Program-made: the position numbers and the translations under genes
The notes under the pieces: model-generated
What the model was told of the DNA's origin: nothing
The model's input: the letters and a program-made list of their open reading frames with translations, nothing else
Database searches by the model: none
DNA from: a virus
Direction: 5' to 3' (one strand)
Virus record (IMG/VR): IMGVR_UViG_3300023443_000752
Span: 1-43,412 of that record
Length of the DNA: 43,412 bases
Part shown: piece after piece, positions 1 through 43,412 of the stretch
How positions within the stretch are numbered: position 1 is the first letter of the stretch
Layout: every line of letters begins with the position of its first letter

Positions 1-144
1 GTGGGTTCCAGATTTTCAGTTGACGGATCATTCCGGCCTCCCTGCTAAACCACAGAAGCCACCTATGACATAATTCTGTTCGAGCTGTACTAGATTACCG
101 TCCTTGTCGTACTTACAGCGCTCCGCTTCCAACTTTGTCGCGCC
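1..144. repeat. Left copy of 144-bp terminal direct repeat
   Basis: These 144 bases recur exactly and in the same orientation at 43269-43412, the other end of the window. This pattern is expected when an assembler closes a circular or circularly permuted genome. A true short terminal repeat is possible but less likely, because the repeat lies inside a gene (28-291, minus) and has no regulatory character. The unique genome is then 43,268 bp, and minus-strand genes continue from here to the far end of the window. Confidence 0.95.
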
Positions 145-291
145 ATAACGAAGTCTCGTTCCGTCCCAGAACATTCCCGCCCACCGCCAAGCCATACAGG
201 AAGAGGCCGAACAAGTTTTAATTACACCATCGGCGGGGAGGCCAAGCACACGACATTCTTTCTCTTTTGCTTCAGCTTCAGTGAGGATCAT
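28..291 (-). CDS. Small cysteine-containing conserved phage protein (CMAWRW / GFCGLAG family)
   Basis: An 87-residue protein. I chose the start at 291 because it lies just after the stop of the upstream gene. It carries the motifs CSASSCMAWRW (about 29-39) and GGFCGLAG near the C-terminus. I recognise this pair from a widespread phage family of unknown function. The paired cysteines suggest metal binding, which is inference. Its TGA overlaps the ATG of a downstream membrane micro-gene (ATGA), so the two are probably translationally coupled across the genome join. A truncated copy of the same gene lies at the right end because of the terminal repeat. Confidence 0.75.
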   Translation of the reverse strand: MILTEAEAKEKECRVLGLPADGVIKTCSASSCMAWRWAGMFWDGTRLRYGATKLEAERCKYDKDGNLVQLEQNYVIGGFCGLAGRPE

Positions 292-292
292 T

Positions 293-850
293 TCACTGTC
301 TCCCCCACTCGTCCCAGGAGCGGTTTCGGCCCTTATATTCAAGGTCGTCATATTCCTGCTTTCGAAGGCTGGGGCGTTGGGCTTGCGATCCCCGTCCCGT
401 CCACATTGGGCCTTCGGTGGTTTTGATATCAGCACCGGCCATTATGAGTTCGGCCCCAAGCGCCCACCAAAGCCGCATATAGCGTTTATTGTTCAGCCGG
501 TCGTAAAACTCTGGGATCTGACGGCGCTGCTTTCTGATCTCTTTGGCCAACCTGTGCGCTATGGTGAGAGCCAAATCTTCCAGCTTATATTCAATAAGCC
601 CAGACAGATCACGCGAGCGCAGATAGCTTCTGAGGTTGTGCCGTATCAGCTCACGGAAGTGTTGATGGTTGTCCCACTCAATGCAGCGTGCGTAATAGGC
701 CTGGCCTTCGGGGTCGCCTTCTTTCCAGACAGGAATATCTCGGTGGCTGGAGAAGAGGTTTTTGTTGGGCTTACACGGTGCCTGCATTTTACCAAGAACT
801 TCACTGCGTAGCTGAGCGTTGCCTTTAAGGATATCGAGTTGGTTGCTCAT
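293..850 (-). CDS. Hypothetical early protein, 185 aa
   Basis: Not recognised. A 185-residue, charged, tryptophan- and arginine-rich soluble protein without membrane segments. The middle part (about 65-115) looks helical, with regularly spaced Leu and Arg, including HNLRSYLRSRDLSGLIEYK. Its ATG overlaps the stop of the upstream gene (ATGA), and its stop is one base before the next start, so it sits firmly inside the minus-strand early operon. No catalytic motif is visible. Confidence 0.75.
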   Translation of the reverse strand: MSNQLDILKGNAQLRSEVLGKMQAPCKPNKNLFSSHRDIPVWKEGDPEGQAYYARCIEWDNHQHFRELIRHNLRSYLRSRDLSGLIEYKLEDLALTIAHRLAKEIRKQRRQIPEFYDRLNNKRYMRLWWALGAELIMAGADIKTTEGPMWTGRGSQAQRPSLRKQEYDDLEYKGRNRSWDEWGRQ

Positions 851-1209
851 GCTGTCTCTCCGCGGGCCTTTTCAAGGACTTCTTCAACAAAGCAATACAA
901 ATCAAGATTGTCTTGAGTAGCTACTTTGACGAGGATTTTTTTGACGTGCTCAAGCGCACTGAACATCTCTGGCGCTGCTGCTATCAGGCGGGCGTCTTCT
1001 TTTGTCATGGCAACTTCTGCGTGGCTATCAACGCCGCGCCAAATACTGACAACTGATACAGGCCTTTTTAGCTGTCCATGTTCCCATTCAGTTTCAATTT
1101 GATAGTATTTCGTGGGGTTATACTCTCGCGGCTCGGTACCAGGAATTGGTACTGATATTGTTTCCTCAACAACATTCCAAGGCCCGGGCATGTGGTGAGT
1201 ATCAGGCAT
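847..1209 (-). CDS. Conserved phage protein of the LIAAAPE family
   Basis: A 120-residue protein. The start at 1209 (MPDTHHMPGPWN) is set by a GGAGG ribosome site six bases upstream. It has the layout of a very common phage family of unknown role: an N-terminal PGPWNV segment, a variable middle, then DARLIAAAPEMFSALEHV (about 78-95) and a charged helix. A second, divergent member is at 10314-10640 on the same strand. It overlaps the upstream HNH gene by 8 bases. Possibly a small DNA- or protein-binding factor, but no function is established. Confidence 0.8.
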   Translation of the reverse strand: MPDTHHMPGPWNVVEETISVPIPGTEPREYNPTKYYQIETEWEHGQLKRPVSVVSIWRGVDSHAEVAMTKEDARLIAAAPEMFSALEHVKKILVKVATQDNLDLYCFVEEVLEKARGETA

Positions 1210-1747
1210 GACGCACCTCCCTTTGCGCACGGCACATTCCTGCAATGGCTTTTGCACGGAACTCCGGGTCATGCCATGGCGGCATAAATTGGCGCCCGTG
1301 TTTCACCCGGTCTTGTGCATTCTCAGAGCAAGTACCCCAGACAAGATTATCGATATGGTTATTTTTGCTGTTACCGTCGATGTGTCGAACTTCAAGCTTG
1401 GCATCGCTTGGTATACCTATGAACGCCCAAACAACAAGCTTATGAACCCGATACTTTTTTCGGGTGTTATCGACGGTAAGACGGACTGCTAGGTAACCAC
1501 GATTGTCGTCATGCTGGCACATTTCACGCCGTCCGTACCCACGCCAATTGGATGTGATGGAAAACACACACCCGTCTCTAGTAATTTCATATCCGGGTGG
1601 TCTCCAAAGAGTAAATCCTGTCTCGCTCGCCGCTGGTTCAAGTTTGTCTTCTTGTTCAGGACAGTCAGGATCACGGCAGCCGTCTTGAATGGTGCCGTCA
1701 ATCACACGCTGACCACACTGTGGGCACTCGTGGTGTGTCTCCCTCAT
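1202..1747 (-). CDS. HNH homing-type endonuclease with N-terminal zinc ribbon
   Basis: A 181-residue protein. The start at 1747 is chosen because its ATG overlaps the preceding TGA (ATGA). The first 30 residues carry CPQC and two later cysteines, likely a zinc ribbon. A NUMOD4-like stretch (about 48-65, WRPPGYEITRDGCVFS) precedes the HNH core YRVHKLVVWAF ... VRHIDGNSKNNHIDNL, which contains the expected H, N and H positions. Such nucleases cut DNA and often spread themselves between phages. It may be a free-standing mobile gene inside the operon. A second, different HNH nuclease sits at 41746-42297. Confidence 0.88.
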   Translation of the reverse strand: MRETHHECPQCGQRVIDGTIQDGCRDPDCPEQEDKLEPAASETGFTLWRPPGYEITRDGCVFSITSNWRGYGRREMCQHDDNRGYLAVRLTVDNTRKKYRVHKLVVWAFIGIPSDAKLEVRHIDGNSKNNHIDNLVWGTCSENAQDRVKHGRQFMPPWHDPEFRAKAIAGMCRAQREVRHA

Positions 1748-1998: not shown

Positions 1999-2026
1999 CG
2001 CTCGCATCCTCCTTGTCATTAAACCC

Positions 2027-2055: not shown

Positions 2056-2072
2056 CAGACTAAAGGCAGAAA

Positions 2073-2143: not shown

Positions 2144-2380
2144 ATGAAACTTAAACTATGGTTAAAGCAAAACAGATGGAGCCGTCCAGCCTTTGCTGAT
2201 GCTCTATCTGTTAGCATATCACGTCAATCAATTGATGCCTACGTCAACGGTATACGCAAGCCAGGAAAGCTTATTGCCCGCGCCGTTTTTAATTTCACCC
2301 ATGGGCAAGTGCGGCCACAAGACTTTGGTTTACCTAAGAATTTTCTGAATCCCCGCAAGGGGAGGAAGGGGAAGAAATGA
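2144..2380 (+). CDS. Cro/YdaS-like HTH regulator
   Basis: A 78-residue basic protein. I prefer ATG 2144 (MKLKLWLKQN), preceded by a GAGG-like site, over ATG 2132. MKLKLWLKQNRWSRPAFADA followed by SRQSIDAYVNGIRKPG is a helix-turn-helix resembling small Cro/YdaS-type phage repressors. The C-terminus ends in a lysine/arginine tail. It is the first rightward gene and is divergent from the leftward operon, so it likely binds the dyad just upstream and sets the early switch. The tail codons contain a CCCC-GCAA-GGGG hairpin (2351-2362). Confidence 0.75.
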   Translation: MKLKLWLKQNRWSRPAFADALSVSISRQSIDAYVNGIRKPGKLIARAVFNFTHGQVRPQDFGLPKNFLNPRKGRKGKK

Positions 2381-3684: not shown

Positions 3685-4034
3685 CCCACAAGCCTTCCAA
3701 ATACAGAAACGTCAAAACAGAAGTAGACGGCATTACCTTTGACTCAAAGCTGGAGGCAAAAAGATACAGCGAATTGAAGCTGCTTGAAAGGGCAAAAGAA
3801 ATATGGGGACTTAAGCTCCAGCCAGCTTTCCCACTTGAGGTAAAGCGGCCCTACGTAGAAGCCCAAGTTATAGGGAAATACAAAGCAGACTTTGCCTACC
3901 ATGACCCCTCACTAGATCGGTTAAACGATCTTGTGATTGAAGATACAAAGGGCATGAAAACCCCACTCTACAAATGGAAGAAGAAACACTTCGAGGCTCA
4001 GTACGGCATTTCCATAACGGAGATCACGAAGTGA
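3681..4034 (+). CDS. DUF1064 family putative PD-(D/E)XK nuclease
   Basis: A 117-residue protein matching DUF1064 over nearly its full length: KYRNVKTEVDGITFDSKLEA, KRYSELKLLE, YKADFAY and VIEDTKG. The acidic residue in FDSKLEA, the Asp of KADFAY and the E-D-x-K-like IEDTKG form a plausible PD-(D/E)XK metal-dependent nuclease site, resembling small phage endonucleases and junction-resolving enzymes. The likely role is DNA processing during replication, recombination or host DNA degradation. The family match is strong; the activity is inferred. Its TGA overlaps the GTG start of the next gene. Confidence 0.85.
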   Translation: MTHKPSKYRNVKTEVDGITFDSKLEAKRYSELKLLERAKEIWGLKLQPAFPLEVKRPYVEAQVIGKYKADFAYHDPSLDRLNDLVIEDTKGMKTPLYKWKKKHFEAQYGISITEITK

Positions 4035-4360
4035 CCAAATGGACCGAAGATGAAATTGAAACGGTTCGCATAATGGCCGCTCTTGATTGCTCAACGGCCA
4101 AGATTGCCGAAGCCTTGCCGGGGCGCTCATCTAATTCTGTGATTGGTTGTTGTCATAGAAATAATATTTCTCTTCGGAAGAAATACGCCAGTACACCATT
4201 TACCAATGACGAAAGAACCATGATATTTGAAATGGGGCAAGATGGCTCATCCATTATGCAAATTGCTCTAGTAGTAGGGCGCTCTTACCCCGCTATCAGT
4301 AAATATTTGCGCGTTAACTTTGGTGGCATCAAAGCCATTCAACGCCGGGCTGAATTATGA
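4031..4360 (+). CDS. Double-HTH protein with GcrA-like N-terminus
   Basis: A 109-residue protein. The start is GTG 4031, overlapping the previous stop (GTGA); no ATG fits the conserved part. Residues 3-47 (KWTEDEIETVRIMAAL, then SSNSVIGCCHRNNISLRK) align with the DNA-binding domain of GcrA and with the next gene. A second helix-turn-helix-like unit follows (FTNDERTMIFEMGQDGSS, then SYPAISKYLR). The zinc-like C-terminal sigma-contacting part of GcrA is missing. It may be a tandem-duplicated, re-purposed DNA binder that competes with or modulates GcrA at target promoters; that is inference. Confidence 0.7.
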   Translation: MTKWTEDEIETVRIMAALDCSTAKIAEALPGRSSNSVIGCCHRNNISLRKKYASTPFTNDERTMIFEMGQDGSSIMQIALVVGRSYPAISKYLRVNFGGIKAIQRRAEL

Positions 4361-4749
4361 CTTGGGAACGCTGGACCGAAGAAAATGTAATTACATTGAG
4401 GAAATTATGGCGTGATGGTTTGTCCGCGTCCCAAATTGCAAGAGAAATGAAAGTGCCAACCCGTAATGCTGTGATTGGCAAGATACATAGACTGGGTTTG
4501 TCGGGACGTGATAAAACCAAACAAGCCGATAAGGTCAATTTACCCAAACTCGAACCAAAGCCGGTGATTATCATAGCCAGGTCGGAACGGCCCTTGTCTC
4601 GTGGGCTACTACCTATGGCGGGCAAATGCAAATGGCCAACCGGCGATCCAAAAGACCCAGCTAATTATTTTACATGCGGTAGACAGTCACTAAGCAACGG
4701 GCCTTATTGTAAGACGCATCATGAGATTGCTTTCAGGGGGAGATCATGA
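4357..4749 (+). CDS. gcrA: GcrA family cell-cycle regulator
   Basis: A 130-residue protein. Residues 3-50 (WERWTEENVITLRKLWRDGL, SASQIAREMK, RNAVIGKIHRLGLSGR) are the GcrA DNA-binding helix-turn-helix. Residues about 88-126 (GKCKWPTGDPKD, FTCGRQ, GPYCKTHHEIAF) are the cysteine/histidine C-terminal segment that in Caulobacter GcrA contacts sigma-70. The family recruits RNA polymerase to promoters carrying CcrM-methylated GANTC sites. The protein is shorter than host GcrA (roughly 170 residues) because its linker is short, but both functional ends are present. It could redirect host transcription or time phage transcription to the cell cycle. It overlaps both neighbours by ATGA. Confidence 0.92.
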   Translation: MTWERWTEENVITLRKLWRDGLSASQIAREMKVPTRNAVIGKIHRLGLSGRDKTKQADKVNLPKLEPKPVIIIARSERPLSRGLLPMAGKCKWPTGDPKDPANYFTCGRQSLSNGPYCKTHHEIAFRGRS

Positions 4750-6316: not shown

Positions 6317-6655
6317 ATGCAAATACACCCTCAAATGGATCTCTTCGCTGGACGTGCCGACCGTAACGCATCCCTAACCCGTGTAGCTAAAAACAGCGGG
6401 AATTTCATGTCTGATGCGATTGCAACGTTCCGAATAGAATTGCAGGGCTTTGTCCCACATGAGCGTGTAACCGGCGAAGATATCAGAGTAGCATTAACCG
6501 ATTGTGGTATTGCGCCGCACCATCCCAATGCCTGGGGCGCATTAACCCGTATTTTGATCCTGCGCGGTATGCTGATTCCCACAGACGAGTTTCGTCACAT
6601 GAAATCACGCCGTTCTCATGCGCGTATGACACGGGTTTACGAGGTTGCCGGATGA
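6317..6655 (+). CDS. Conserved alphaproteobacterial-phage protein, winged-helix-like
   Basis: A 112-residue protein starting directly after the preceding stop. The order MDLFAG, then VAKNSGNFM, then GEDIRVALTDCGIAPHHPNAWGA, then LILRGMLIP and SRRSHARMTRVYEV is a pattern I recognise from alphaproteobacterial phage early genes. The GEDIR ... LILRGML part looks like a winged helix with a beta-wing, so DNA binding is plausible. No experimentally known function. Its stop overlaps the next ATG. Confidence 0.7.
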   Translation: MQIHPQMDLFAGRADRNASLTRVAKNSGNFMSDAIATFRIELQGFVPHERVTGEDIRVALTDCGIAPHHPNAWGALTRILILRGMLIPTDEFRHMKSRRSHARMTRVYEVAG

Positions 6656-7551
6656 CCCTCTATGATCATGCCGATCTGACACAGCACCAGAAGCGCAGCG
6701 TATTACGGGAAATGCGCGGCCTAGAAATTAATGAGCTAGAGCGCAAGAAAGCCGTTCATAAGGCTAAATACGAATCATTAGTCATACGCCAAGAAGCTCT
6801 TACTGAAGTGCTCGAATGGGCGAAAGCTGAGGCCAAACTAGAGCGAGCAGTTACAAGTCGTCTACATTATCTGTTGGACGATATAAGACGTGGCCGTGTT
6901 TTTTGGGGATCACCAGATTCAGAGGATAAGGATAACGTTGTAAGTTCGGTGTGGGCAACGGTAAATCTTCTTGAGACCCAAACCTTTGTAATTCAGCACG
7001 ATTGGGCTGGGGCGCTGTCAGGCGCTGGTGATTTTGATGCTGGCGAATTTCACCTACCTGCCGATCCCGTAGTGTTTGAAATGCGGCTTTCTGGACGCCA
7101 TACAATTGTGCTGATCGGCAATGATCCAAATACGAGCCTTGAGTTTGGTTATTTCGTAGAAACTAAGCACGGGTGGGTCGCAAGAGGCCCAGAGCCTTGC
7201 GATCTGTCTCTAGTAAATGATGATCACATCTTTGCCTGGTCACAAATCCGCGCCGTTTGTATTGCCTTGGACGCTGAAGTTGCTAGTACAGAAACCATCC
7301 GCGCTCCACATAAGCTCAATCATGCCCGTGAAAAACGTGGGGCACTACCAATTAGAGATTATCATGTAGTGAACCTTGCAAATTGTAGCCGGGCTATCTC
7401 TTTAGGAGTTTCAGATGAAACTCGCAGGAAGGTTCGTTTGCACTTTCGCCGTGGTCATTGGCGACACTTTGTAAATCATAAAACTTGGATCAAGTGGACC
7501 CTGGTTGGTGATCCTGACCTTGGTTTTATTGATAAGGAATACCGCGTATGA
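6652..7551 (+). CDS. Conserved hypothetical with RRGHWRHF / DPDLGFIDKEYRV end
   Basis: A 299-residue protein. The start at 6652 overlaps the previous TGA (ATGA), and the frame upstream of it is only a shadow. Residues about 15-70 are charged coiled-coil helix (REMRGLEINELERKKAVHK). The C-terminus (HFRRGHWRHF, KTWIKWTLVGDPDLG, FIDKEYRV) matches a widespread phage/plasmid family of unknown role in which a 'RRGH-x-R' motif is followed by GDP-x-LG and YRV. The basic C-terminal domain suggests nucleic-acid binding. It is the largest early gene. Confidence 0.75.
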   Translation: MTLYDHADLTQHQKRSVLREMRGLEINELERKKAVHKAKYESLVIRQEALTEVLEWAKAEAKLERAVTSRLHYLLDDIRRGRVFWGSPDSEDKDNVVSSVWATVNLLETQTFVIQHDWAGALSGAGDFDAGEFHLPADPVVFEMRLSGRHTIVLIGNDPNTSLEFGYFVETKHGWVARGPEPCDLSLVNDDHIFAWSQIRAVCIALDAEVASTETIRAPHKLNHAREKRGALPIRDYHVVNLANCSRAISLGVSDETRRKVRLHFRRGHWRHFVNHKTWIKWTLVGDPDLGFIDKEYRV

Positions 7552-7895
7552 CCCTTTCCCAGAACTCAAGAGCTAAACCACAAACTCACCTGTCTGATAA
7601 TTTTCCTTCCGAAGATGCTTTGGAATGGGCGGTAAAAAACCAAGGCTTGAGTTTTGCCGAAGCGGAACACGAGGCTATAGGCTTTAGAAATTACTGGATT
7701 TCCGAGGGGAAACCTAAGGCGGACTGGATGGCGACATGGCGAAATCGTATCTGGAACGCCAAAAGACAAGGCCGGGTTGGTGGTGGCATGACCAAATTTA
7801 ATGGCACTGGCCCACCCAACCAATCTCAAAAAGATAACGCCGCCTTTGCTCAGGCTTTAGAAATGTTGCGGCGCAACGAAGGCAGGCTCTTATGA
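7548..7895 (+). CDS. Replication-initiator C-terminal-like (DnaT/O-type) protein
   Basis: A 115-residue protein. The segment FPSEDALEWAVKNQGLSFAE, then GFRNYWISEGKPKADWMATW and RNRIWNAK, is the pattern found at the C-terminus of many phage replication-initiator and primosome (DnaT/O-like) proteins, where it helps load helicase or bind ssDNA. The N-terminal DNA-binding part of such proteins is missing, so this is either a stand-alone domain or a cut-down initiator. It is the only gene in the window with a clear link to DNA replication. It overlaps both neighbours by four bases. Confidence 0.6.
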   Translation: MTLSQNSRAKPQTHLSDNFPSEDALEWAVKNQGLSFAEAEHEAIGFRNYWISEGKPKADWMATWRNRIWNAKRQGRVGGGMTKFNGTGPPNQSQKDNAAFAQALEMLRRNEGRLL

Positions 7896-11088: not shown

Positions 11089-11304
11089 ATGATCTTCGGG
11101 AATGAAGTGTTGGAAATTCAATGCAAGTGCGAATTGCCAGAGTGTAAAGTGCAGCGATCCGATGGCTCATGGTCGAATGGCTGCTGGGAGATCTGGTGGA
11201 AGGGAACAATATGCAAACGGATCTGGATCCAGACATTCTTGGACGGACGTAAACCAACTTGGCATGAACACTTGATCGAAGAATCTTCTGCAGTAAGCAA
11301 GTAG
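11089..11304 (+). CDS. Hypothetical 71-aa Cys/Trp-rich protein
   Basis: I chose ATG 11089 (MIFGNEVLEIQCKC) because AGGAG lies seven bases upstream; ATG 11050 is an alternative. It carries CKCELPEC (about 12-19) and later two more cysteines with many tryptophans (GCWEIWWKGTICKRIW). A small zinc-bound beta fold is plausible. Not recognised. It stands upstream of an XRE regulator on the same strand. Confidence 0.5.
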   Translation: MIFGNEVLEIQCKCELPECKVQRSDGSWSNGCWEIWWKGTICKRIWIQTFLDGRKPTWHEHLIEESSAVSK

Positions 11305-11321: not shown

Positions 11322-11615
11322 ATGAGCAAGCTAGCCCATTCACACCAGCCGACCATGGACAGGATTGAGTATCAACGAGCTCTATGTGACCTTGGATTCA
11401 AGGAAGCCTTCGGCTTGGCTATGAGAAACCGACGTCATAATTTAGGTTACACGCAAGCAGATGTTGCCAAGCGCCTCGGCAAAAGCAGGACATCAATCAC
11501 CAACATGGAGCTAGGCCGTCAAGGCATGTCGCTGGAGACTGGTTTGAAGCTGATGAATATCCTGCATATGTCAGTTGGCGATCTCCTGGGCCAGAGAGAT
11601 ATAATGTACGTTTAG
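11322..11615 (+). CDS. XRE-family HTH regulator
   Basis: A 97-residue protein with a clear HTH-XRE domain at about 25-80: FGLAMRNRRHNLGYTQADVA, KRLGKSRTSITNMELGRQGM, SLETGLKLMNIL. It is preceded by AGGAAGGAA. It is separate from the early Cro-like protein at 2144 and sits at the boundary between early and late regions, so it may control the late switch. A terminator follows at 11683. Confidence 0.85.
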   Translation: MSKLAHSHQPTMDRIEYQRALCDLGFKEAFGLAMRNRRHNLGYTQADVAKRLGKSRTSITNMELGRQGMSLETGLKLMNILHMSVGDLLGQRDIMYV

Positions 11616-19024: not shown

Positions 19025-19306
19025 ATGATTGTTCAGTTTACGGATAACCAAGCTGCCATTATGTCAAGTGCTCTGCATTACTATATCAAGCAGGTTGGCC
19101 TGTCTGATGTTACACTCAATGGGCAAACTGTTCCCGGTGTTGCTCATCTTGATATTATTCATGGCATAACGGTTGCCTTGCGCACTGCTCAGCCTGATCC
19201 GGAGCCGGTGACAAAAGACATTCTGGAAGAAATCGAAGACAACATCGTGCCATTAAAGGCAAATGGTGAAGATTCTACTGAAGACGAAACCGTGACTCCT
19301 TCGTGA
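19025..19306 (+). CDS. Hypothetical 93-aa protein
   Basis: A 93-residue protein with a strong AGGAGG site. IVQFTDNQAAIMSSALHYYI is followed by VAHLDIIHGITVALRTAQPD and an acidic tail rich in Asp and Glu. Its stop overlaps the GTG start of the sulfotransferase, so the two are co-translated. Not recognised. Confidence 0.65.
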   Translation: MIVQFTDNQAAIMSSALHYYIKQVGLSDVTLNGQTVPGVAHLDIIHGITVALRTAQPDPEPVTKDILEEIEDNIVPLKANGEDSTEDETVTPS

Positions 19307-20094
19307 CCCCTACACTTCATTGGCTTGCCTCTTACCCCAAGTCGGGTAATACTTGGGTGCGCCTTTTTCTGGCTAACTACCTGAGAGATGAAGGCGATGA
19401 TCCGGTTAATATCAACGATGTATCGAATGGGCCGCTGGCCCTTCAATGTTGCGCAACGGATGCCTACGAAGCGGCCTGCGGTTTTGTCCCTAAAGGGGAA
19501 GAAGCACAGTTGAAGGCAAGGCCTTTGGTGCAGAAATTCCTGAATACTTTGGGTGAAAATACCCCAATAAAAACACATAGCGAAAATGCAGCATTTCAAG
19601 GAATACCTTTCATAGATCATCAATATACAAAATCAGCCATCTATATTATTCGCAGTCCGATAGACATTATCCCCTCACACGCCAATCATTTCTCAGTATC
19701 ATATGAAGAAGCGTTTGAGCAAATATGTGAACCAGCACGATCTCTTCTGGTTCCTGACGGGGTCCACACCATGGTTTCCAGTTGGGATAATCATGTGAAC
19801 TCGTGGAAAGATTATGCCAATTTTGTTCGCTATGAAGACTTTCCAGATGCTTTCCAAGTTGTGCTCAATACTCTGGAAATCCCCAGCGAGGGCCTTGATT
19901 TTGATCAAGCCGTAGCGGATTGCGATATTGAAAGGCTCAAACTTCAGGAAGCAGCGTTAGGCTTTGGCGAGCAACGTGGTGACGATCCGTTCTTCTCAGG
20001 TGGACGAATGCCTATTTCCGATGATCTCAAATCCCGTGTTATTGAAAAATTCTACCCGTTGATGAAAGAGTTTGGTTATGTCTCAACGATATAA
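19303..20094 (+). CDS. PAPS-dependent sulfotransferase
   Basis: A 263-residue protein. GTG 19303 overlaps the preceding stop (GTGA) and places the key motif in the usual N-terminal position. YPKSGNTWVR (11-20) is the 5'-phosphosulfate loop; IYIIRSPIDIIPSH (113-126) is the 3'-phosphate site with the conserved Arg and Ser; SWDNHVNSW and VRYEDF follow as in carbohydrate sulfotransferases. Such enzymes move sulfate from PAPS to a hydroxyl of a sugar or small molecule. Together with the adjacent glycosyltransferase it may decorate a surface glycan or a virion protein. The family is clear; the substrate is unknown. Confidence 0.9.
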   Translation: MTPTLHWLASYPKSGNTWVRLFLANYLRDEGDDPVNINDVSNGPLALQCCATDAYEAACGFVPKGEEAQLKARPLVQKFLNTLGENTPIKTHSENAAFQGIPFIDHQYTKSAIYIIRSPIDIIPSHANHFSVSYEEAFEQICEPARSLLVPDGVHTMVSSWDNHVNSWKDYANFVRYEDFPDAFQVVLNTLEIPSEGLDFDQAVADCDIERLKLQEAALGFGEQRGDDPFFSGGRMPISDDLKSRVIEKFYPLMKEFGYVSTI

Positions 20095-20863
20095 CATTTT
20101 GTTCTGCACGCCAATTATGGATGCTCGCCCGGAGTGGGGTTTTATTTCATCCGTTACTGCTGCAATTGAGCACTTAAATTCCAAAGGGCATATTGCCAGT
20201 CTCGATACGGTGACTACGGAGAGTTATATCCCTCGAGCAAGATGCACGCTTCAGGCTCAAATGCTTGCTCAATCCGGCTGGGATTATCTCTTTTGGATAG
20301 ATTCAGATATTGGTTTTAATGCCGATTCCCCGGAGCGTTTGATTTTGCATAATGTCGATGTTGTGGTTGGTGCTTATCCATTAAAAGATTTGCCTATCAA
20401 ATATTCAACTAATGTATCCAAGAATTGGGAGCCTCATATTACTCCGGCAGGAGATAGTCTCATTCCAATGGACCATGCTTCAACCGGCTTTATGTGTATC
20501 AAGCGTCGGGCTCTGGAGATGGTCAATGCGGCCCATCCTGAGTTGAAGGTTTTTCTGCCCAAAAATCTGATGAATTTAATCCCGCCTCCTGAGGGCCTGC
20601 CGGAAGGCTTTGAAACTGTCATGGCTGATAGCTACTATGCCACCTGGGATGGCATGATTATCCCCCATCCTGACCATGAAGGAGAGCAAATGTGGCTCTC
20701 TGAGGATTGGGGTTGGTGTCAGCGTTATCGTGATCTTGGAGGTAAGATTTGGCTTGACCCAGAAATTGCGTTAAACCACATAGGGAAATTCACTTATCAG
20801 GGCAATCCCGAGGTCATAAGGACCGCAGCCCAAAAACATCGTAAGGAGAATACCAATGGCTGA
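20078..20863 (+). CDS. GT-A-type glycosyltransferase
   Basis: A 261-residue protein. ATG 20078 lies inside the sulfotransferase 3' end (17-base overlap). TESYIPRARCTLQAQML (about 47-63), then YLFWIDSDIGFNADSPERLI (70-89) with a DxD motif at 75-77, then VVVGAYPLKDL and STGFMCIKRRALEM. This is the pattern of phage GT2/Anp1-like glycosyltransferases that use a nucleotide sugar and a metal bound by DxD. Acceptor unknown: host surface sugar, virion protein or fibre. Tight coupling to the sulfotransferase argues for one shared pathway. Confidence 0.82.
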   Translation: MSQRYNILFCTPIMDARPEWGFISSVTAAIEHLNSKGHIASLDTVTTESYIPRARCTLQAQMLAQSGWDYLFWIDSDIGFNADSPERLILHNVDVVVGAYPLKDLPIKYSTNVSKNWEPHITPAGDSLIPMDHASTGFMCIKRRALEMVNAAHPELKVFLPKNLMNLIPPPEGLPEGFETVMADSYYATWDGMIIPHPDHEGEQMWLSEDWGWCQRYRDLGGKIWLDPEIALNHIGKFTYQGNPEVIRTAAQKHRKENTNG

Positions 20864-21260: not shown

Positions 21261-22744
21261 TGACGTCGGGCCTTGCCGCCCTACAGGTTCTTGCCAAACA
21301 TGCCGAGCAAAACAAAATTGCCCGGCATATTCCCTATGGACATCCTGATACCCTCTGTCCTGATGGCAAGGTGTGGAAGGAGAAGTTCGAGGCTGGCGAA
21401 TGGCAGAAATGGTCTAACAAGCCGTGGCAATGGGACTTCTATGCTGCTGGCAAAGAAGCCATGCAGCGAATGCTTATATCGGCCAATCGCGTGGGAAAAA
21501 CCTATACTGAAGCCGATGAAGTTTCCTATCATATGACGGGTGAATACCCTGGTTGGTGGGTAGGACGAAGATTTGATTGTGCTACAAATGGGTGGACTGG
21601 CTCGCCCACTAATGAAACCTCTCGTGATATTGTTCAAAAGGAACTTCTGGGTCATCCCGATGAGAAGGGTGAATATGGCACAGGGACTATTCCGAAGCGA
21701 CTTATTACCAAGGTAAAAACACGACAGGCAGGCATTGGTGATGTCGTTGATTATATTCAGGTCAAACATGTCTCAGGCAAACTGTCACGATGCGTTTTCA
21801 AAACTTATGAGCAGGGTTGGCAGAAATGGCAGGGCACGGAACAACACTGGATTTGGCTTGATGAGGAACCCGATGATATCAAGATTTATACTGAAGGTAT
21901 CACCCGTTTAGCGACAACGGGCGGGATTCTGGTTGTAACTTATACGCCCTTAAAAGGTCGGACGGCGCTGCTGCAAAGCTTTGAAAACAACTCAAAAGCC
22001 ATTATTATTCGTGCCACCTGGGATGATGCTCCACACCTTACTGAAAAGGTGAAAGATGAACTAAAGGCCGGTTACCCGGATTGGGAACTGGAAACACGTA
22101 CTATGGGTGTTCCGATGATGGGTGAGGGCCGGGTGTTCCAGTTCTCGGAAGCCGATATCAAGGAAGATCCTATCGAAATACCGCCTCATTGGGCTCAAAT
22201 CCATGGCATTGATTTTGGCATTAACCATCCTTTTGGCGGTTTCAGATGGGCTTGGGACAGGGACCAGGATGTTATCCACGGCACATGGTGTTATCGGAAG
22301 CGGGATCAAACCCCACCACATCATGCTACGGCCTTAAACGGTGTCGCTAACAAAACCCAGTGGATACCTGTTGCATGGCCTCATGACGGCATGAACCGGG
22401 ATAAGGGCAAAGGCGTGACCTTGGCGCAAGTCTACCGCGACCATCAGGTCAATATGCTGGGGGTTTCTGCCAGATATGATGATAAGATTGGTGGCGGACA
22501 GGGCCAGGAGCAGATTATCATGGAGATGATTGAGCGTGCCCAGACAGGGCGGCTCAAGGTCTTTTCGACTTGTCATGAGTTCTGGGAGGAATTCAGGAAT
22601 TATCACAGAAAGGATGGAAAACTGGTGGACCGGGATGAAGATGTGCTCAAAGCTGCTTTCTATGGTCTGATGATGCTGAGATATGCTAGGCCCTACCATC
22701 AATTGCAAACCAACAAATCCCCATATACGAGGCCCATATTCTGA
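21260..22744 (+). CDS. terL: Terminase large subunit
   Basis: A 494-residue protein. ISANRVGKT (73-81) is the Walker A loop of phage packaging ATPases in its A-x-R-x-GKT form. WIWLDEEP (197-204) is Walker B with catalytic Glu. VTYTP (226-230) is the coupling motif. IHGIDFG (314-320) supplies the first metal-binding Asp of the RNase H-like nuclease, and the conserved Asp before LKAAFYGLMML closes it. The protein pumps DNA into the prohead and cuts it. The start overlaps the previous stop (TAATG). The GKT-to-nuclease spacing is normal, so the enzyme looks intact. Confidence 0.95.
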   Translation: MTSGLAALQVLAKHAEQNKIARHIPYGHPDTLCPDGKVWKEKFEAGEWQKWSNKPWQWDFYAAGKEAMQRMLISANRVGKTYTEADEVSYHMTGEYPGWWVGRRFDCATNGWTGSPTNETSRDIVQKELLGHPDEKGEYGTGTIPKRLITKVKTRQAGIGDVVDYIQVKHVSGKLSRCVFKTYEQGWQKWQGTEQHWIWLDEEPDDIKIYTEGITRLATTGGILVVTYTPLKGRTALLQSFENNSKAIIIRATWDDAPHLTEKVKDELKAGYPDWELETRTMGVPMMGEGRVFQFSEADIKEDPIEIPPHWAQIHGIDFGINHPFGGFRWAWDRDQDVIHGTWCYRKRDQTPPHHATALNGVANKTQWIPVAWPHDGMNRDKGKGVTLAQVYRDHQVNMLGVSARYDDKIGGGQGQEQIIMEMIERAQTGRLKVFSTCHEFWEEFRNYHRKDGKLVDRDEDVLKAAFYGLMMLRYARPYHQLQTNKSPYTRPIF

Positions 22745-23109: not shown

Positions 23110-24933
23110 ATGGCTCGAACGCCGGTTGAAAAAGCAAACCTCTCTGAAGAGGATTTTCGGTTTCTTGCCGAGTTCATAATTCTTGAGCAGTCCAAGCGTT
23201 CGCGCAGACGAGAAAAGATTGAAGAGGTTTGGAAGGAAATAGACCGCCAAGTTGCCATGATTCCACAACCGTCCAACATTGATACTGCCAGTGGCAGAAC
23301 CATTGAGGGCACTGAATGGATGCCTTTTGTGGAACAGCCCTTTCAGGCACAGACTTTAGAGGTTCTGGTTGCTGATTCCATGGCTCTTATTTTTCCTGAA
23401 GGAGAGGATTTCTTTGCTGCGCATTCCGATGTGACAGAGGAATTCTTGGTTGGAATTGATCCCAATGAATTATTCGGTGGCACGCGAAATCTAGAAGACT
23501 CTGCGGTTACTCAAGAACATATTAACGCTATTGTTGAGGCCGTGCATTTTCATTATCAAGGCCTTTACGATTACCGCAGTATGTGGAATCGGATATTGGT
23601 TGATTGCTTTAAGCGCGGTACGTTTGCTGCAAAATATGACATTGTGACTTCGGAACGATTTGATCATCAGACCAGGGGTGTTGTTCCCAAGAAACAAGAA
23701 TTTCCCATGCTTATTCCGTATCAAATGGACGACACCTATTTTGCGGACGAATTGGATGTGCTTCAGCATTCCAATGCTGTTGTGGGCAAGCAACCAATCC
23801 GAGTTTTTATGCAGGATTTGGGCGATCTTAAACTTGATGCGAAAAGAGGTGGAACCAAGGCGGGCTGGCGGCCTGGGGCGGTCGATACTATGGAGCCTCT
23901 TAGAGAAGGGGATGTGAAACTTCTGGAGTATGAAGGGGATTTGATTGTCCCCAGATCAGATATTAAACCTCTTTTTCTTGCTAATGTAACATTTACCGCT
24001 GTGATGGGTAAAACCAAGGCCCCGGACGGTAAAGAAAAAGATATGAGCACCATTATCCGGTTTAAGGAAAATGAGTTCGACCGCTCAACATTTGTAACGG
24101 GCGGTTATTCCCCGGAAGACGCGCGCTCACCCTATATGACATCTCCATTGGTCAAGGGAATGCCAATTCAAAAGGCTATGAGCGAAGCGTCAAATCGTAC
24201 CAGTCAAGCGGCCATTTTGCAGACCGAACCACCTATTGGGTACAATGATAACAACGCGGTTTTCTCGGCAAATCGGGGAGTTAACATTTCACCTCGTGCC
24301 CAAAATGCGACGATTGGTGAGATTCAAATCCTTCAAATTGGTGATGTTACGGCTCTTAGTGCCTATTATTTCTCACTTGTGGCACTTTATGAAAATGTGA
24401 CAGGTGTGAATCGTACCCGTCTTGGTGCTCAAACAAAAAGCCATCAGACCCGTTTTGCCGTAAATCAGGAGGCCCAGAGAGGTCAAGCCAGGACCATAGA
24501 TTATGTTCGGAGCGTAATGATCGGAGCCATGAGAACGTCTCTTGAGATCGAATGGATGATGATCAAAAAGGTATTTCCTGATAAGGGTGAGCAACGGATT
24601 TATGTTGGTAAACCATACGATATGTTCTTAAATATTCAGGCCAAGCATTTGCCAGATAGGGTGCTTTATGAGGTTAGGGGCGCTGCCGAACCATTTGTTG
24701 AGCAGGAAGAATTGCAGGCCAAAATTCAAGGCCTGACGTTGGCCTTACAGGTTGATCAGGCCCGGAAAGAGGCTGGTGAGGCCGGTATGGACCTTGAGGA
24801 ATTCCAGCGATTTGTCCTTCAAGAGAGTGGATTTACCGATGTGGATAAGTTCTTTGCGGAGCCAAATGCCCCAAGATCTCAGGGCGCACTTGGAGAACTT
24901 CCAGCGCAGCCCCAATTCCAAGAAGTTGGCTGA
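23110..24933 (+). CDS. Portal (head-tail connector) protein
   Basis: A 607-residue protein in the position and size of a podoviral portal, immediately after terL and before scaffold and capsid. The long helical N-terminus (LAEFIILEQSKRSRRREKIE) and the middle VNRTRLGAQTKSHQTRFAVN, then QRGQARTIDYVRSVMIGAMR, resemble the wing and stem helices of portals. The C-terminus is Gln-rich. It forms the dodecameric ring at the packaging vertex. The call rests on order and size more than on a signature motif. AAGGGA upstream supports the start. Confidence 0.8.
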   Translation: MARTPVEKANLSEEDFRFLAEFIILEQSKRSRRREKIEEVWKEIDRQVAMIPQPSNIDTASGRTIEGTEWMPFVEQPFQAQTLEVLVADSMALIFPEGEDFFAAHSDVTEEFLVGIDPNELFGGTRNLEDSAVTQEHINAIVEAVHFHYQGLYDYRSMWNRILVDCFKRGTFAAKYDIVTSERFDHQTRGVVPKKQEFPMLIPYQMDDTYFADELDVLQHSNAVVGKQPIRVFMQDLGDLKLDAKRGGTKAGWRPGAVDTMEPLREGDVKLLEYEGDLIVPRSDIKPLFLANVTFTAVMGKTKAPDGKEKDMSTIIRFKENEFDRSTFVTGGYSPEDARSPYMTSPLVKGMPIQKAMSEASNRTSQAAILQTEPPIGYNDNNAVFSANRGVNISPRAQNATIGEIQILQIGDVTALSAYYFSLVALYENVTGVNRTRLGAQTKSHQTRFAVNQEAQRGQARTIDYVRSVMIGAMRTSLEIEWMMIKKVFPDKGEQRIYVGKPYDMFLNIQAKHLPDRVLYEVRGAAEPFVEQEELQAKIQGLTLALQVDQARKEAGEAGMDLEEFQRFVLQESGFTDVDKFFAEPNAPRSQGALGELPAQPQFQEVG

Positions 24934-25766: not shown

Positions 25767-25801
25767 GGAGTTTCGCCGGTCACGCATAAGGATGTGTGAC
25801 C

Positions 25802-26869
25802 ATGGTTTCACAAATTACCGACACTCCAATTCTGACGCAGCCTATCAACGTTGCGTTTCAGACCAACTTTCTGGCAAGGGCTTTGGCTCTTGCTCCGTAC
25901 TTCATCGGCTCAAAGCCCGGTGTAATCAATAGCCATAGTGGTACGTTTACCATCTCATGGCGGCGTATCGAGAACGTCACTCCGACTATAACCGCGCTTA
26001 CGGAATTGAACGGCAATGTTGCATTTCCAACGCGGGATTCAATCGTTCCTTCAACCACGAATGTTCAGGCCACATTGCTTAAATTTGGTCAGTATTTCGT
26101 GGTCAACGAAGAAGCTGATTTAATCAACTTCAATGGGCAGACGCAGGAACTTATTGATGTTTTGGCAACCTCCGGTGGCCGTTCCCTCAATTTCTTGCAG
26201 CGTAATGAACTTGAAGACAATGCCACGGCCATTCTTGCTGCTGGTGCGGCTTCAGCTACAGCAATTGTCACTAAACTTTCAAGGAATGATATCCGTAATG
26301 CGGTAAATACCCTTGATCGTAATGTGGCGCTACATTTCACTCCGATCACTACGGGAAGCCAAAATGTGGGCACCACGCCCATGCGGCCTTCGTATTGGGG
26401 TCTTTGCCATCCGGATGTGGAGCAGGATATTCGTGATATGTCCGGCTTTATTGCGGCAGAATCCTATGCCGGTCAAACCCAGACCGCGACTGGTGAATTT
26501 GGAGCTGTAGGCGGTGTGCGCTTCCTTGTTAGCTCTGATGCCACGGTTGACCTTGAAGGTGGTGGGACTTCGACGGGAACCGGCTTGCGTACAGGTGGTA
26601 ATACCAAGGTAGATAACTATCCTACGGTGATCATGGGCATGAATGCTCATGGCTCTGTGGGCTTGGATACCGCCCATGTTCAGGAAGTTTATCGTGCTGG
26701 CGATGATCTTCCAGGCATGATAATGATTTCAACTCCCAAGGGTTCTGCCGGTGCGGCTGATCCGTTTCAGGAGTTGATGACATTGGCTTGGAAATCCTGG
26801 CACGCGCCAAAGATTTTGAACGGGGACTGGGTTCGTACTATTATCTCCGGTGCAAGCCTGCTTACCTAA
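25802..26869 (+). CDS. Major capsid protein, N4-gp56-like
   Basis: A 355-residue protein. ATG 25802 follows AAGGA by nine bases; GTG 25796 is too close. The order fits the N4-gp56 capsid family, an HK97-type fold: FQTNFLARALALAPY, SGTFTISWRRIEN, TLLKFGQYFVVNEEADLINF, ATSGGRSLNFLQRNELE, and PSYWGLCHPDVEQDIRDM. It builds the shell. It is followed by a perfect hairpin, as often seen after very highly expressed capsid genes. Confidence 0.9.
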   Translation: MVSQITDTPILTQPINVAFQTNFLARALALAPYFIGSKPGVINSHSGTFTISWRRIENVTPTITALTELNGNVAFPTRDSIVPSTTNVQATLLKFGQYFVVNEEADLINFNGQTQELIDVLATSGGRSLNFLQRNELEDNATAILAAGAASATAIVTKLSRNDIRNAVNTLDRNVALHFTPITTGSQNVGTTPMRPSYWGLCHPDVEQDIRDMSGFIAAESYAGQTQTATGEFGAVGGVRFLVSSDATVDLEGGGTSTGTGLRTGGNTKVDNYPTVIMGMNAHGSVGLDTAHVQEVYRAGDDLPGMIMISTPKGSAGAADPFQELMTLAWKSWHAPKILNGDWVRTIISGASLLT

Positions 26870-36600: not shown

Positions 36601-37091
36601 TTGATGGTTACGCCTTAACATATCTGGCGTTCCTTCTTTTAACGTGTCTGGTGGCTCTTAAGTGGGGCCATCGGGCGCGTATCATGGGCGCAGCTCTTAT
36701 GACGGTCGCTTGGGTAATGACCATCCTGGCAAGGCCTATCGGAGCTGAAGCGCCTCCTCTTTCTTTTGCCGCAATCGACTTTATCAATGTCGTCCTGTTT
36801 TGTGTGATTGGTGGGTTTTATGACAGGACTTGGGCCATATGTGTGGCTGGACTTCATATCGGAATGCTGCTCACGCATTTCGCATTTGCAACATTGCTTA
36901 TTCACAACCAATTCTTGTATCTTTCTATTCTGGCGGCATTAAGCTACGTTGCTCTATCTATGATTGCCGTGCCGCCTTTATGGAACAGGATATTAGGCCG
37001 TGGCACTAGAGATATGGATTATCGGGATTTTGTGCATCTTGGCTATTGGCATTCACTCTTTGGCGATTCAGAAAAGAAAACGCCGGAATGA
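36597..37091 (+). CDS. Multi-pass membrane protein, 164 aa
   Basis: GTG 36597 overlaps the previous stop (GTGA). At least four hydrophobic helices are visible (YLAFLLLTCLVALKW; IMGAALMTVAWVMTILA; FINVVLFCVIGGFY; LLTHFAFATLLI, then YLSILAALSYVALSMIAV), followed by a charged tail. It could be a holin-like or superinfection-exclusion membrane protein. The cluster position near the end of the virion block favours lysis, which is inference. Confidence 0.65.
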   Translation: MIDGYALTYLAFLLLTCLVALKWGHRARIMGAALMTVAWVMTILARPIGAEAPPLSFAAIDFINVVLFCVIGGFYDRTWAICVAGLHIGMLLTHFAFATLLIHNQFLYLSILAALSYVALSMIAVPPLWNRILGRGTRDMDYRDFVHLGYWHSLFGDSEKKTPE

Positions 37092-37339
37092 CCGAAAAGA
37101 AAAAAACCAAAGAAGATTACGAAACCGAAGAGGCTCTTAAGAAGGCTATTTCCGATTATCTGATTGATCATGGTGCCCCGGAAAATCAGGTGGGTGATAT
37201 CATGCGTATGATGGTATGGCAGGCAAAAGTCGCCATCAGAGGCCAGAACCTGATTATCGGGTTTATTCTTGCCATTATGGGCACTGTCGTCTTGGCTGCT
37301 ATATTAGCCATGCGGGATATATTCCGCACTACGGGATAG
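37088..37339 (+). CDS. Single-pass membrane protein, 83 aa
   Basis: ATG 37088 overlaps the previous stop (ATGA). A charged helical N-terminus (KKTKEDYETEEALKKAISDY) is followed by one transmembrane segment (LIIGFILAIMGTVVLAAILA). Lysis or membrane role inferred from place and topology. Confidence 0.65.
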   Translation: MTEKKKTKEDYETEEALKKAISDYLIDHGAPENQVGDIMRMMVWQAKVAIRGQNLIIGFILAIMGTVVLAAILAMRDIFRTTG

Positions 37340-37358: not shown

Positions 37359-37374
37359 TGTTTCACGTGAAACA
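37359..37374. promoter_or_regulatory. parS: Perfect chromosomal-type parS site (ParB binding site)
   Basis: The 16 bases TGTTTCACGTGAAACA are a perfect palindrome and match the consensus parS site bound by chromosomal ParB across bacteria, including alphaproteobacteria. The site lies in the intergenic gap between 37339 and 37424. By chance an exact 16-mer is expected about once in 4.3 billion positions. No other copy or close match was seen. No ParA or ParB gene is present in the window, so the ligand would have to be the host's own ParB. Confidence 0.85.
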
Positions 37375-37423: not shown

Positions 37424-37612
37424 ATGACGACGAAACGACCGACAAAACAGGAAGTCCAGAAGGAGATGGAACGGATTCTTCAGGACCAACTGAAACGGCA
37501 GTTTTTGCGTCCGATCCCGGAACAGCAATTGATAAAGCCGCAAAATCGAGAGACCGAAGAAAAGTGGGCGGGCGCGGATACAAGTACCCCTGGGCGACAG
37601 ATCTGTGATTAA
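37424..37612 (+). CDS. Small basic protein after parS, 62 aa
   Basis: MTTKRPTKQEVQKEMERIL begins a charged helix; the rest is Gln/Arg/Pro-rich. I prefer this frame over the overlapping acidic one (37216-37608) because of the plausible start and helical layout. Not recognised. Being right after the parS site, it could mediate something related, but there is no sequence evidence. Confidence 0.45.
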   Translation: MTTKRPTKQEVQKEMERILQDQLKRQFLRPIPEQQLIKPQNRETEEKWAGADTSTPGRQICD

Positions 37613-41112: not shown

Positions 41113-41113
41113 T

Positions 41114-41497: not shown

Positions 41498-41506
41498 GAC
41501 GTGATC

Positions 41507-41749
41507 TCATTCATCACCGTATCCTTTGATAAGTTGCAGCTTGGCTCGTTCCACTAGGGCAACAAGCAAATCCCGGCTGGTTCGGTTGGCATAGACCACC
41601 ATGTTGCTATCATCGTCCTCCGCAATAATCATAACCGTGCTAATTTGTCTGTCAGTGATATATTCTAAAAATTCAGCTATGGCCTGTCGTGCTGTGACTT
41701 CAATAATGGTCGCACCAGGGAATCTGAGAATTTTGCACTTATCGGTCAT
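41507..41749 (-). CDS. 80-aa protein, left-arm copy of a duplicated gene
   Basis: Paralogue of 7892-8131 (about four residues in five identical). It keeps FPG, ARQAIAEFLE, DRQISTVMIIAEDDDSNMVV and IKGYGDE. ATG 41749 overlaps the previous gene's stop (ATGA). Function unknown. Confidence 0.75.
   Translation of the reverse strand: MTDKCKILRFPGATIIEVTARQAIAEFLEYITDRQISTVMIIAEDDDSNMVVYANRTSRDLLVALVERAKLQLIKGYGDE
41590..41653 (-). repeat. 64-bp perfect inverted repeat, left-arm copy
   Basis: Identical, in reverse complement, to 7985-8048. It lies inside the paralogous gene. Both copies point away from the central early control region on the circular map, one on each arm. Confidence 0.9.
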
Positions 41750-42297
41750 GGCGCGGTGTCCTTGACCTGCAACGGTGGAAGTAAGCCAAGAGACTCATTC
41801 GTTACCGCGAACTCGCCATGAAGCGCCAGCGCAGCTTTGTCATAAGCTCGTGCAGCTTCTTCCCTTGTGCGGTGATTCCCAGCGAACCGTGTCTCCCCGC
41901 CGTTAGACCGTATTTGCGCACGCCAGGACGTATCGCCGTGGTCGATCCATGTGACCCCCTTAAATCCAGACGAGTTGTCAATTCTCTGCCCGCGGTTGCG
42001 TTGGTTTTGTGCGTGTGTTGCCTCTCGCAAATTGGCCCATCGATTATTATCTTTGTCACCATCAATGTGGTCCATCTGGTTGAGGGGCCATCGCCCCACC
42101 ATGTACAAAAAAGCTAGTCTGTGGGATCGATACTGCTTTCCGCCAATTGAAATAACGCGATACCCGCGCTGGTTTACATGCCCCGCGATGTCTCCCACGG
42201 CGGTTTTTGATGATGTTGCTGTAAGTCGTATGAAGCGCCCCGTATCTGGCTCATAGCGGAGCTGCTGTCTTACATCTTCATAGGTTAGACTAGTCAT
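41746..42297 (-). CDS. HNH endonuclease with AP2 domain
   Basis: A 183-residue protein; ATG 42297 begins MTSLTYEDVRQQL and overlaps the previous gene by eight bases; the longer upstream frame is a shadow. The HNH core is YRSHRLAFLYMVG ... MDHIDGDKDNNRWANLREAT, followed by HAQNQRNR. An AP2-type DNA-binding domain follows (SGFKGVTWIDHGDTSWRAQI, HRTREEAARAYDKAALALHG). This is the classic homing-endonuclease architecture. It may be a mobile gene in the leftward operon. Confidence 0.92.
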   Translation of the reverse strand: MTSLTYEDVRQQLRYEPDTGRFIRLTATSSKTAVGDIAGHVNQRGYRVISIGGKQYRSHRLAFLYMVGRWPLNQMDHIDGDKDNNRWANLREATHAQNQRNRGQRIDNSSGFKGVTWIDHGDTSWRAQIRSNGGETRFAGNHRTREEAARAYDKAALALHGEFAVTNESLGLLPPLQVKDTAP

Positions 42298-42604
42298 TAC
42301 CGTTCTCCAGGGTCTTGCGGGCAACCTTGCCACCATCATCATCAAGCGCTTCTGTTGGTCTGTGCAATGGTATTGTGCAGCCGGGGACAGACGCATCACC
42401 TGCTGTATCGTGTTCCCATTCATCCCGGTAAAACTCCAACGCCTCCCGCAGTTTCGTGTTCTCGGTCTGTGCGGCTTCAAGGGCGTCTGCGGCCGCAGAC
42501 AATATAACTGGCGCCACTAAAACTGCACCACTTCGTGTGCCCTGGCGGCTTGCTCGTAACCGCTTCCGCAGCCGTTCCACTAGCGCTGTGTCATCGTCAG
42601 TCAT
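42290..42604 (-). CDS. Hypothetical 104-aa protein
   Basis: ATG 42604 begins MTDDDTALVERLRKRLRAS; an upstream ATG in the same frame lies inside the SSB-like gene and is less likely. A basic helix is followed by a coiled coil (AAADALEAAQTENTKLREAL, EFYRDEWEHD) and a Cys/Pro-containing tail. The MTDD ... ALVERLR start is seen in many phage proteins of unknown function. Confidence 0.65.
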   Translation of the reverse strand: MTDDDTALVERLRKRLRASRQGTRSGAVLVAPVILSAAADALEAAQTENTKLREALEFYRDEWEHDTAGDASVPGCTIPLHRPTEALDDDGGKVARKTLENGND

Positions 42605-42671
42605 ACGGGTTCTGTTCTCTCTCCTTACAGCCGCTGTTCTGCACGACGGTTGCTTGAAGTTGTGCGCCAGG

Positions 42672-43151
42672 TCAAAATGGAATCTCATCTGTAGGCCCCT
42701 TTCGCGGGCCCGGTGGTGTGTTAACAGTATTGCCCGGAGCGTTCGGATGCTGTGGGTTAACAATTGGCTGGCGTTGCTGAACAGGTTGTTGTACCGGCTG
42801 TGACGGTGGTTGCTGTATATTGCTTGCCTGTAAAGCGGTTTGCACAAAAGGCTTAACCCGAATGGCCGGTGTCTGCACGCCTTTAAAATCGACCATGGTC
42901 GAAAAAACTAAGAAGCCCATCCCTGTCCATTGGTCAGTTTCATCTCCAAACATTTGAACAAGTGAATTGGCATTTGTCTTATTCAGTACGAGGCCTTTAT
43001 CGCCATACTCGTAGAAATGAACAATCATCTTTTGTTCATTGTCCAGTTGTTCCATACTGACACGGGCAACGGTAACCTGGACTTCTTGTCCAAGCCCTCC
43101 GAGGTCTTCTGCCTTGAGATACTTGGAAGGGAATGCCTGTGATACTCTCAT
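42672..43151 (-). CDS. Putative ssDNA-binding protein with SSB-like acidic tip
   Basis: A 159-residue protein. I prefer ATG 43151 (MRVSQAFPSKYLKAEDL), with GGAG six bases upstream, over ATG 43163. The N-terminal 100 residues are a beta-rich domain (VQVTVARVSMEQL, GDKGLVLNKTNANSLVQMFG, TPAIRVKPFV) found in many phages. A Pro/Gln-rich linker then leads to TDEIPF, closely like the DDDIPF tip by which SSB recruits partner proteins. An ssDNA-binding role is inferred from the tail. It is the only likely replication protein of the leftward arm. Confidence 0.7.
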   Translation of the reverse strand: MRVSQAFPSKYLKAEDLGGLGQEVQVTVARVSMEQLDNEQKMIVHFYEYGDKGLVLNKTNANSLVQMFGDETDQWTGMGFLVFSTMVDFKGVQTPAIRVKPFVQTALQASNIQQPPSQPVQQPVQQRQPIVNPQHPNAPGNTVNTPPGPRKGPTDEIPF

Positions 43152-43201
43152 AACGTTCTCCATTTCTTCATCATGTGTGGTATAGCTTTTGTGTCACTCA
43201 T
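43148..43201 (-). CDS. Possible 17-aa leader peptide
   Basis: MSDTKAIPHMMKKWRTL. Its ATG overlaps the stop of the membrane micro-gene before it, and its stop overlaps the SSB-like ATG (ATGA on both sides), so it keeps translation continuous between them. Too short to judge from composition. Confidence 0.35.
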   Translation of the reverse strand: MSDTKAIPHMMKKWRTL

Positions 43202-43299
43202 ATCAGCCACCAAACAACCACAACCCACACCGCTGCATTAGCTATCCATATCCAGCCCATAGGAGTAAGTGGGTTCCAGATTTTCAGTTGACGGATCAT
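43198..43299 (-). CDS. Membrane micro-protein spanning the genome join, 33 aa
   Basis: ATG 43299 (equal to base 31 of the left end) overlaps the stop of the 28-291 gene (ATGA). The product starts MIRQLKIWNPLTPMGW and continues with a long hydrophobic helix (IWIANAAVWVVVVWWLI). Translational coupling on both sides supports it. Confidence 0.6.
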   Translation of the reverse strand: MIRQLKIWNPLTPMGWIWIANAAVWVVVVWWLI

Positions 43300-43412
43300 T
43301 CCGGCCTCCCTGCTAAACCACAGAAGCCACCTATGACATAATTCTGTTCGAGCTGTACTAGATTACCGTCCTTGTCGTACTTACAGCGCTCCGCTTCCAA
43401 CTTTGTCGCGCC
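43269..43412. repeat. Right copy of 144-bp terminal direct repeat
   Basis: Exact copy of 1-144. It contains the 3' part of the CMAWRW-family gene, which therefore appears truncated at the right end but is complete at the left end. When the circle is closed one copy should be removed. Confidence 0.95.

Follow-up and report, generated by a model that had tools for sequence, protein, structure and literature searches.

A host-type parS site in a complete phage genome

The DNA analysed here, which we call the window, is the whole of the IMG/VR viral record IMGVR_UViG_3300023443_000752 (43,412 nucleotides), and our subject is a host-type parS site on this genome, a copy of the short sequence by which bacteria segregate their chromosomes, considered together with a homologue of the cell-cycle regulator GcrA. 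The first 144 bases of the window are repeated as its last 144 bases, and the window is a complete circular tailed-phage genome of 43.3 kb (a circle of 43,268 bp). Closure of the circle makes gene loss by truncation unlikely, and truncation thus offers no explanation for the absence of an integrase. The two features concerned are:

37359 to 37374, no strand: perfect 16-bp parS, TGTTTCACGTGAAACA, with 0 mismatches (sequence match), in the lysis/late region
1 to 144, plus strand: exact direct repeat of the terminal 144 bases (sequence self-comparison)

The parS, already claimed in the initial annotation, was confirmed. It is an exact 16-bp match in an intergenic position, about 20 bases past the stop codon of the gene at 37088-37339 and 50 ahead of the ATG of the gene at 37424-37612, and only 1.5-1.9e-5 exact sites are expected by chance per window. 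No other position in the window comes within two mismatches of parS; the genome holds one full site and isolated half-sites only. The same sequence served as the wild-type parS oligonucleotide in an electrophoretic mobility-shift assay of Hyphomonas neptunium ParB (PMC6650430). The ParB_N domain (PF02195) had no match anywhere in the window, neither ParA nor ParB was found in cis with the site, and the surrounding DNA showed nothing else recognisably host-like. A second perfect 16-bp palindrome, GTCTGCGGCCGCAGAC, was observed at 42485-42500, inside a predicted coding region.

The reported lack of a recognisable integrase or transposase also held for this circular genome: the tyrosine integrase domain (PF00589) was absent throughout the window, and no recombinase or transposase was found among the open reading frames (ORFs) scanned with Pfam and PHROGs.

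Occurrence of parS in other viral DNA

Exact copies of TGTTTCACGTGAAACA were found in at least 120 IMG/VR contigs, and the functional parS variant TGTTCCACGTGAAACA likewise in at least 120, against 5, 15 and 3 contigs for three shuffled control palindromes of the same composition. The two-base mutant TGCCTCACGTGAAACA, the negative control in the Hyphomonas ParB gel shift (PMC6650430), occurred in 5 contigs. The enrichment tracks sequences that bind ParB and not their near-identical mutants. Since host DNA in IMG/VR could inflate these contig counts, we also searched 157 phage loci (1.54 Mb) chosen solely for encoding a terminase; exact parS was present twice, while none of 839 further palindromes matching it in composition occurred there. 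A ParB_N match (E <= 0.001) was missing in 46 of the 50 larger parS contigs. The proportion carrying this domain was similar for the control palindromes (2 of 23 contigs), so phage ParB is no commoner on parS contigs. A phrog_2 terminase was encoded in 22 of the 50, and in half of these (11/22) parS lay less than 12 kb from the terminase large subunit (TerL) gene. The bases flanking parS (-2/-1 and +1/+2) were biased to A and T. Taken together, the contig enrichment, the terminase-locus test and the absence of ParB_N point to ParB-less, host-type parS as a recurrent phage element.

Two contigs with several sites were noted. In a 201-kb phage contig (L149), two identical parS are each flanked by TTGACA on one side and its inverted repeat on the other (TTGACAAAATGGAAATGTTTCACGTGAAACATCTGCATTGTGTCAA), an arrangement resembling promoters overlapped by parS. 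A 116-kb contig (L167), with no ParB_N, contains eleven copies of TGTTCCACGTGAAACA and one exact parS within 14 kb; the cluster may be a parS array or may belong to a host origin region. Enrichment of DnaA boxes near phage parS was rejected, with 3 strict boxes observed against 1.9 expected.

It had been proposed that parS and GcrA without an integrase form a dedicated persistence strategy, an idea that the comparison did not support. PF00589 was matched in 9/50 parS contigs, 5/31 parS-free relatives (Fisher p=1) and 1/23 control-palindrome contigs; many of the contigs compared are fragments, and these counts are lower bounds. GcrA passed its cut-off in 1/50 parS contigs against 5/31 parS-free relatives, being rarer with parS. 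Mutual exclusion of parS and integrase was rejected on these counts, as was an association of parS with GcrA. The combination is found in the complete window phage and in one 26.9-kb contig (G066, locus L138), which has parS, GcrA and no PF00589 match. The co-occurrence sought in phages lacking an integrase was thus seen in G066 but not as a general rule, the overall count being 1/50 and none of the 45 terminase relatives of the window phage having parS.

At L138:894-925 the parS is followed about 10 bp away by a perfect DnaA box, TGTGGATAA, with GcrA some 600 bp beyond the box, TerL 2.4 kb away and a gene for an XRE regulator close by. GANTC is absent from this locus (0 against 16.7 expected), and the arrangement forms an origin-like cluster in this alphaproteobacterial-type phage. 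The stretch with parS and the DnaA box is identical in L371-L373, the site being kept within the species. The DnaA box beside this parS is an isolated case.

Regulators, replication genes and probable host

The regulatory features of the window are:

4357 to 4749, plus strand: gcrA homologue that has both the DNA-binding and the sigma-interacting domain (PF07750, 5e-31; PDB 7ye1, 5yiu, 5yix)
4031 to 4360, plus strand: GcrA-like N-terminal domain (9e-5, below the Pfam cut-off) and a second helix-turn-helix (HTH), HTH_38
2144 to 2380, plus strand: Cro/CI-type HTH protein of 78 aa, encoded at the head of the rightward operon (HTH_3, 0.007; phrog_35 repressor, 3.5e-4)
2066 to 2111, no strand: imperfect operator-like dyad in the divergent control region (arms 2066-2080 and 2097-2111)
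11322 to 11615, plus strand: 97-aa XRE-type regulator (HTH_31, 6e-10; HTH_3, 4.6e-9)

The first of these is, as judged from its sequence matches, a genuine and complete two-domain GcrA. Its DNA-binding domain (PF07750 2-54) aligns to Caulobacter GcrA (5yiu), and its sigma-interacting domain is matched by 5yix (3.9e-8) and by PF07750 108-149. The gene at 4031-4360, profile-scanned as 3974-4360, is without a sigma-interacting domain and has the second HTH in its place. Of the GcrA-like factors described in the plural, one therefore stands with both domains, while the other shares only the N-terminal domain.

The window contains 59 GANTC (CcrM) sites, whereas low-order Markov models predict 155-162 and a third-order model 117. 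This scarcity suggests that the host probably has CcrM and, together with the GcrA gene, indicates a host that is probably alphaproteobacterial and GANTC-methylating. Only 2 of the 59 sites are intergenic, and the proposal that GANTC is kept in phage promoters was rejected. Control of many phage promoters by GcrA is thus unlikely, contrary to the suggestion that this factor ties phage gene expression to the host cell cycle. One of the two intergenic sites (11281-11285) precedes the start of the XRE gene by 41 bp and is a candidate methylation-sensitive promoter. A full CtrA-type site, TTAA-N7-TTAA, overlaps the start of the Cro-like gene (2151-2165); it is the only one in the window, about one is expected by chance, and a CtrA-site signal was rejected.

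A temperate lifestyle had been read from a repressor-like gene with an operator-like dyad. Both features exist, but the gene encodes a Cro-like protein of 78 aa with weak matches, and the dyad (15-nt arms, 80% complementary, 16 nt apart) is unremarkable taken alone. The XRE gene is the clearer regulator match, and no CI-like C-terminal domain was recognised by the Pfam and PHROGs scans in either small HTH protein. Since the Caulobacter phage phiCbK encodes both GcrA and an XRE regulator (PMC3556154, PMC10688885), small genes of these kinds are not diagnostic of lysogeny. The Cro-like gene and dyad are weak evidence of lysogeny and do not establish a temperate lifestyle.

The replication and structural genes recognised are:

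6652 to 7551, plus strand: 299-aa protein of the replication module (no Pfam match; weak phrog_10678)
7548 to 7895, plus strand: DnaT/primosome-type replication protein (phrog_3992, 8.6e-8; phrog_1408, 2.3e-6)
42672 to 43163, minus strand: probable single-stranded-DNA-binding-like protein (C-terminal ...DEIPF by eye; phrog_21613, an uncharacterised family, 7e-8)
21260 to 22744, plus strand: terminase large subunit (PF03237, 9e-19; PF17289, 1e-12)
23110 to 24933, plus strand: portal/head-tail connector (phrog_332, 4e-8)
25796 to 26869, plus strand: major head protein (phrog_1357, 2e-38)

The DnaT/primosome-type gene, which implies use of the host replisome, is the sole recognised replication gene, and no plasmid-type replication initiator (RepA and the like) was found in the window. 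Among the non-structural ORFs, the one at 6652-7551 is the largest, and no other has the length to conceal an integrase; its single-sequence AlphaFold model (predicted local distance difference test score, 38) was too poor for a structure search. The structural genes share 30-60% identity with IMG/VR phages, the best match being G002 (41,982 bp), which is also without a PF00589 match. Rhizobium phage RHph_N3_2 and Pelagibacter phage Baldr are more distant kin, mainly through TerL. When bases 1-25000 were compared with named phages by megablast, no close relative turned up, and a search of genome contigs returned a single distant terminase on a short contig of a metagenome-assembled genome.

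A sulfotransferase-like gene was noted at 19303-20094 (PF00685, 1.2e-4, right at the curated cut-off), adjoining a gene for a 263-aa phrog_1574 protein (20072-20863) that is kept in all seven IMG/VR relatives compared; the two are a possible virion or surface modification pair. Two genes for HNH endonucleases, at 1202-1759 and at 41746-42480 (minus strand, with an AP2 domain), are likely homing endonucleases.

Capture of host ParB, its alternatives and known systems

We favour the reading that the phage parS is a cis-only centromere mimic which captures the host's ParB and serves to retain or position phage DNA, and put its probability at about 0.5. Host ParB, already present and active, would load with CTP at the phage parS and slide over the adjacent DNA. 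To the infected cell the phage genome would then amount to an additional origin region, which would bind ParA and SMC/polar partners and be placed and moved by the chromosome-segregation machinery. The phage would gain retention or positioning of its replicating or dormant DNA in the cell and both daughters, with no ParA or ParB of its own. The phage GcrA may act independently of the site, as a sigma70 cofactor driving a non-replicating infected host towards its replicative programme, as proposed for phiCbK (PMC3556154); this would suit the window phage because its only recognisable replication protein is a DnaT-type organiser of the host replisome.

Besides the site itself and its enrichment in phage DNA, published work on two systems speaks for capture. 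In Caulobacter, a plasmid carrying parS is segregated instead of the chromosome, for which reason viability falls 100- to 1000-fold with all but the weakest sites; the drop is about 1000-fold for a low-copy plasmid with a strong parS, and a plasmid bearing both strong sites kills the cell (PMC5815017). These data show that parS in cis suffices to capture the host ParABS system, and also that a strong parS would make a multi-copy episome difficult to maintain without harm. The mobile element SGI1 exploits the ParB of its IncC helper plasmid through mimic parS sites, stabilising itself and destabilising the helper (PMC10954446). We infer that capture takes place in the window phage too, and to its benefit, with retention or positioning the favoured gain, sabotage of host segregation next and long-term episomal life the least supported.

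Several observations weigh against this reading. The window carries just one parS site, and none of its 45 terminase relatives, the nearest relative G002 included, has any. Relatives of G066 whose TerL is 78-91% identical are likewise without parS. Host DNA may account for some of the IMG/VR parS contigs; in 28 of the 50, no phrog_2 TerL was found. Given that parS is not conserved among relatives, any advantage would be lineage-specific or short-lived, and on this sequence comparison the site looks recurrently gained and lost.

The leading alternative, which we consider rather unlikely, is that parS acts as a decoy, the genomes of a lytic phage titrating ParB and ParA (and MipZ in Caulobacter-like hosts) and so halting host segregation and division. 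The toxicity of strong-parS plasmids to Caulobacter (PMC5815017) would fit, as would a window with neither integrase nor clear maintenance repressor, and parS is not confined to integrase-less phages. However, simpler ways to block the host are available to phages, and the integrase-bearing parS contigs (9/50) would suffer this burden in the lysogenic state were the site to remain active. Improbable, in our view, is a stable phage-plasmid lysogen that relies on host ParABS for partition and uses GcrA and a Cro/CI switch to keep its copy number and gene expression in step with the cell cycle. A complete circular map, XRE/Cro-type genes with a divergent control region, replication dependent on the host replisome, integrases in relatives and the existence of temperate integrase-less mycobacteriophages with par loci (PMC3585329) speak for such a lysogen; against it are the lack of a match in the window to a CI-type repressor with a C-terminal domain, plasmid Rep, toxin-antitoxin or ParAB, the toxicity of parS in Caulobacter, the independence of parS from both integrase absence and GcrA, and the mere two intergenic GANTC sites. 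Last and also improbable, the palindrome may be a passenger fragment from a host origin region, the operator of some phage regulator or a chance match. This would agree with a site unconserved in relatives and with the two parS-GcrA phages sharing only 20 bp and a few bases around it, but host-like sequence should then accompany a passenger and an array of sites an operator, and the enrichment follows ParB binding.

A search of the open-access literature, subscription journals and preprints not being covered, brought up no account of phages that carry host-type parS without ParB. It is conceivable, at somewhat less than even odds, that phages of many lineages have independently gained host-matched parS without ParB, enlisting the host segregation machinery in trans in a widespread and undescribed interaction. 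If that class is real, the window genome with its parS and GcrA would be an alphaproteobacterial example. Host ParB would then be a routine phage resource or target, and infection would be tied in with SMC loading, the control of division and the segregation of chromosomes. The population-level enrichment is of more interest than this single genome. Capture predicts peaks in ParB chromatin immunoprecipitation on infecting phage DNA.

Among known systems, Rhizobium phage RHph_N3_2 (MN988526) is also a 43-kb circular phage, with a TerL 44% identical, but it has an annotated integrase and attachment (att) sites and shares little else with the window. The alphaproteobacterial phages under CtrA control ('lytic deferment') likewise tie their development to a host cell-cycle regulator (PMC9437464); they act through host CtrA sites, whereas the window has one full site, about the chance number. 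The phiCbK-like Caulobacter phages resemble the window in their GcrA homologue, XRE regulator and host with a CcrM/GcrA cell cycle, but are siphophages of more than 200 kb, with no parS reported in PMC3556154 or PMC10688885 and a GcrA about 28% identical. Until now, partition in phages has been known only with a ParAB encoded by the phage itself, as in P1, N15 and mycobacteriophages (PMC3585329, PMC7157519, PMC4490671). These phages, some of them integrase-less, also carry a centromere-like site, yet act on it with their own ParA/ParB, while the window pairs a host-type site with no ParA/ParB that we could find (PMC3585329, PMC7157519). The closest working precedent is SGI1. It differs in being no phage, in exploiting the ParABS of a plasmid and not of the host chromosome, and in using two sites and the Sci protein; like the window phage, it is a mobile element with parS-like sites only, and it uses the ParB of another replicon for its own partition.

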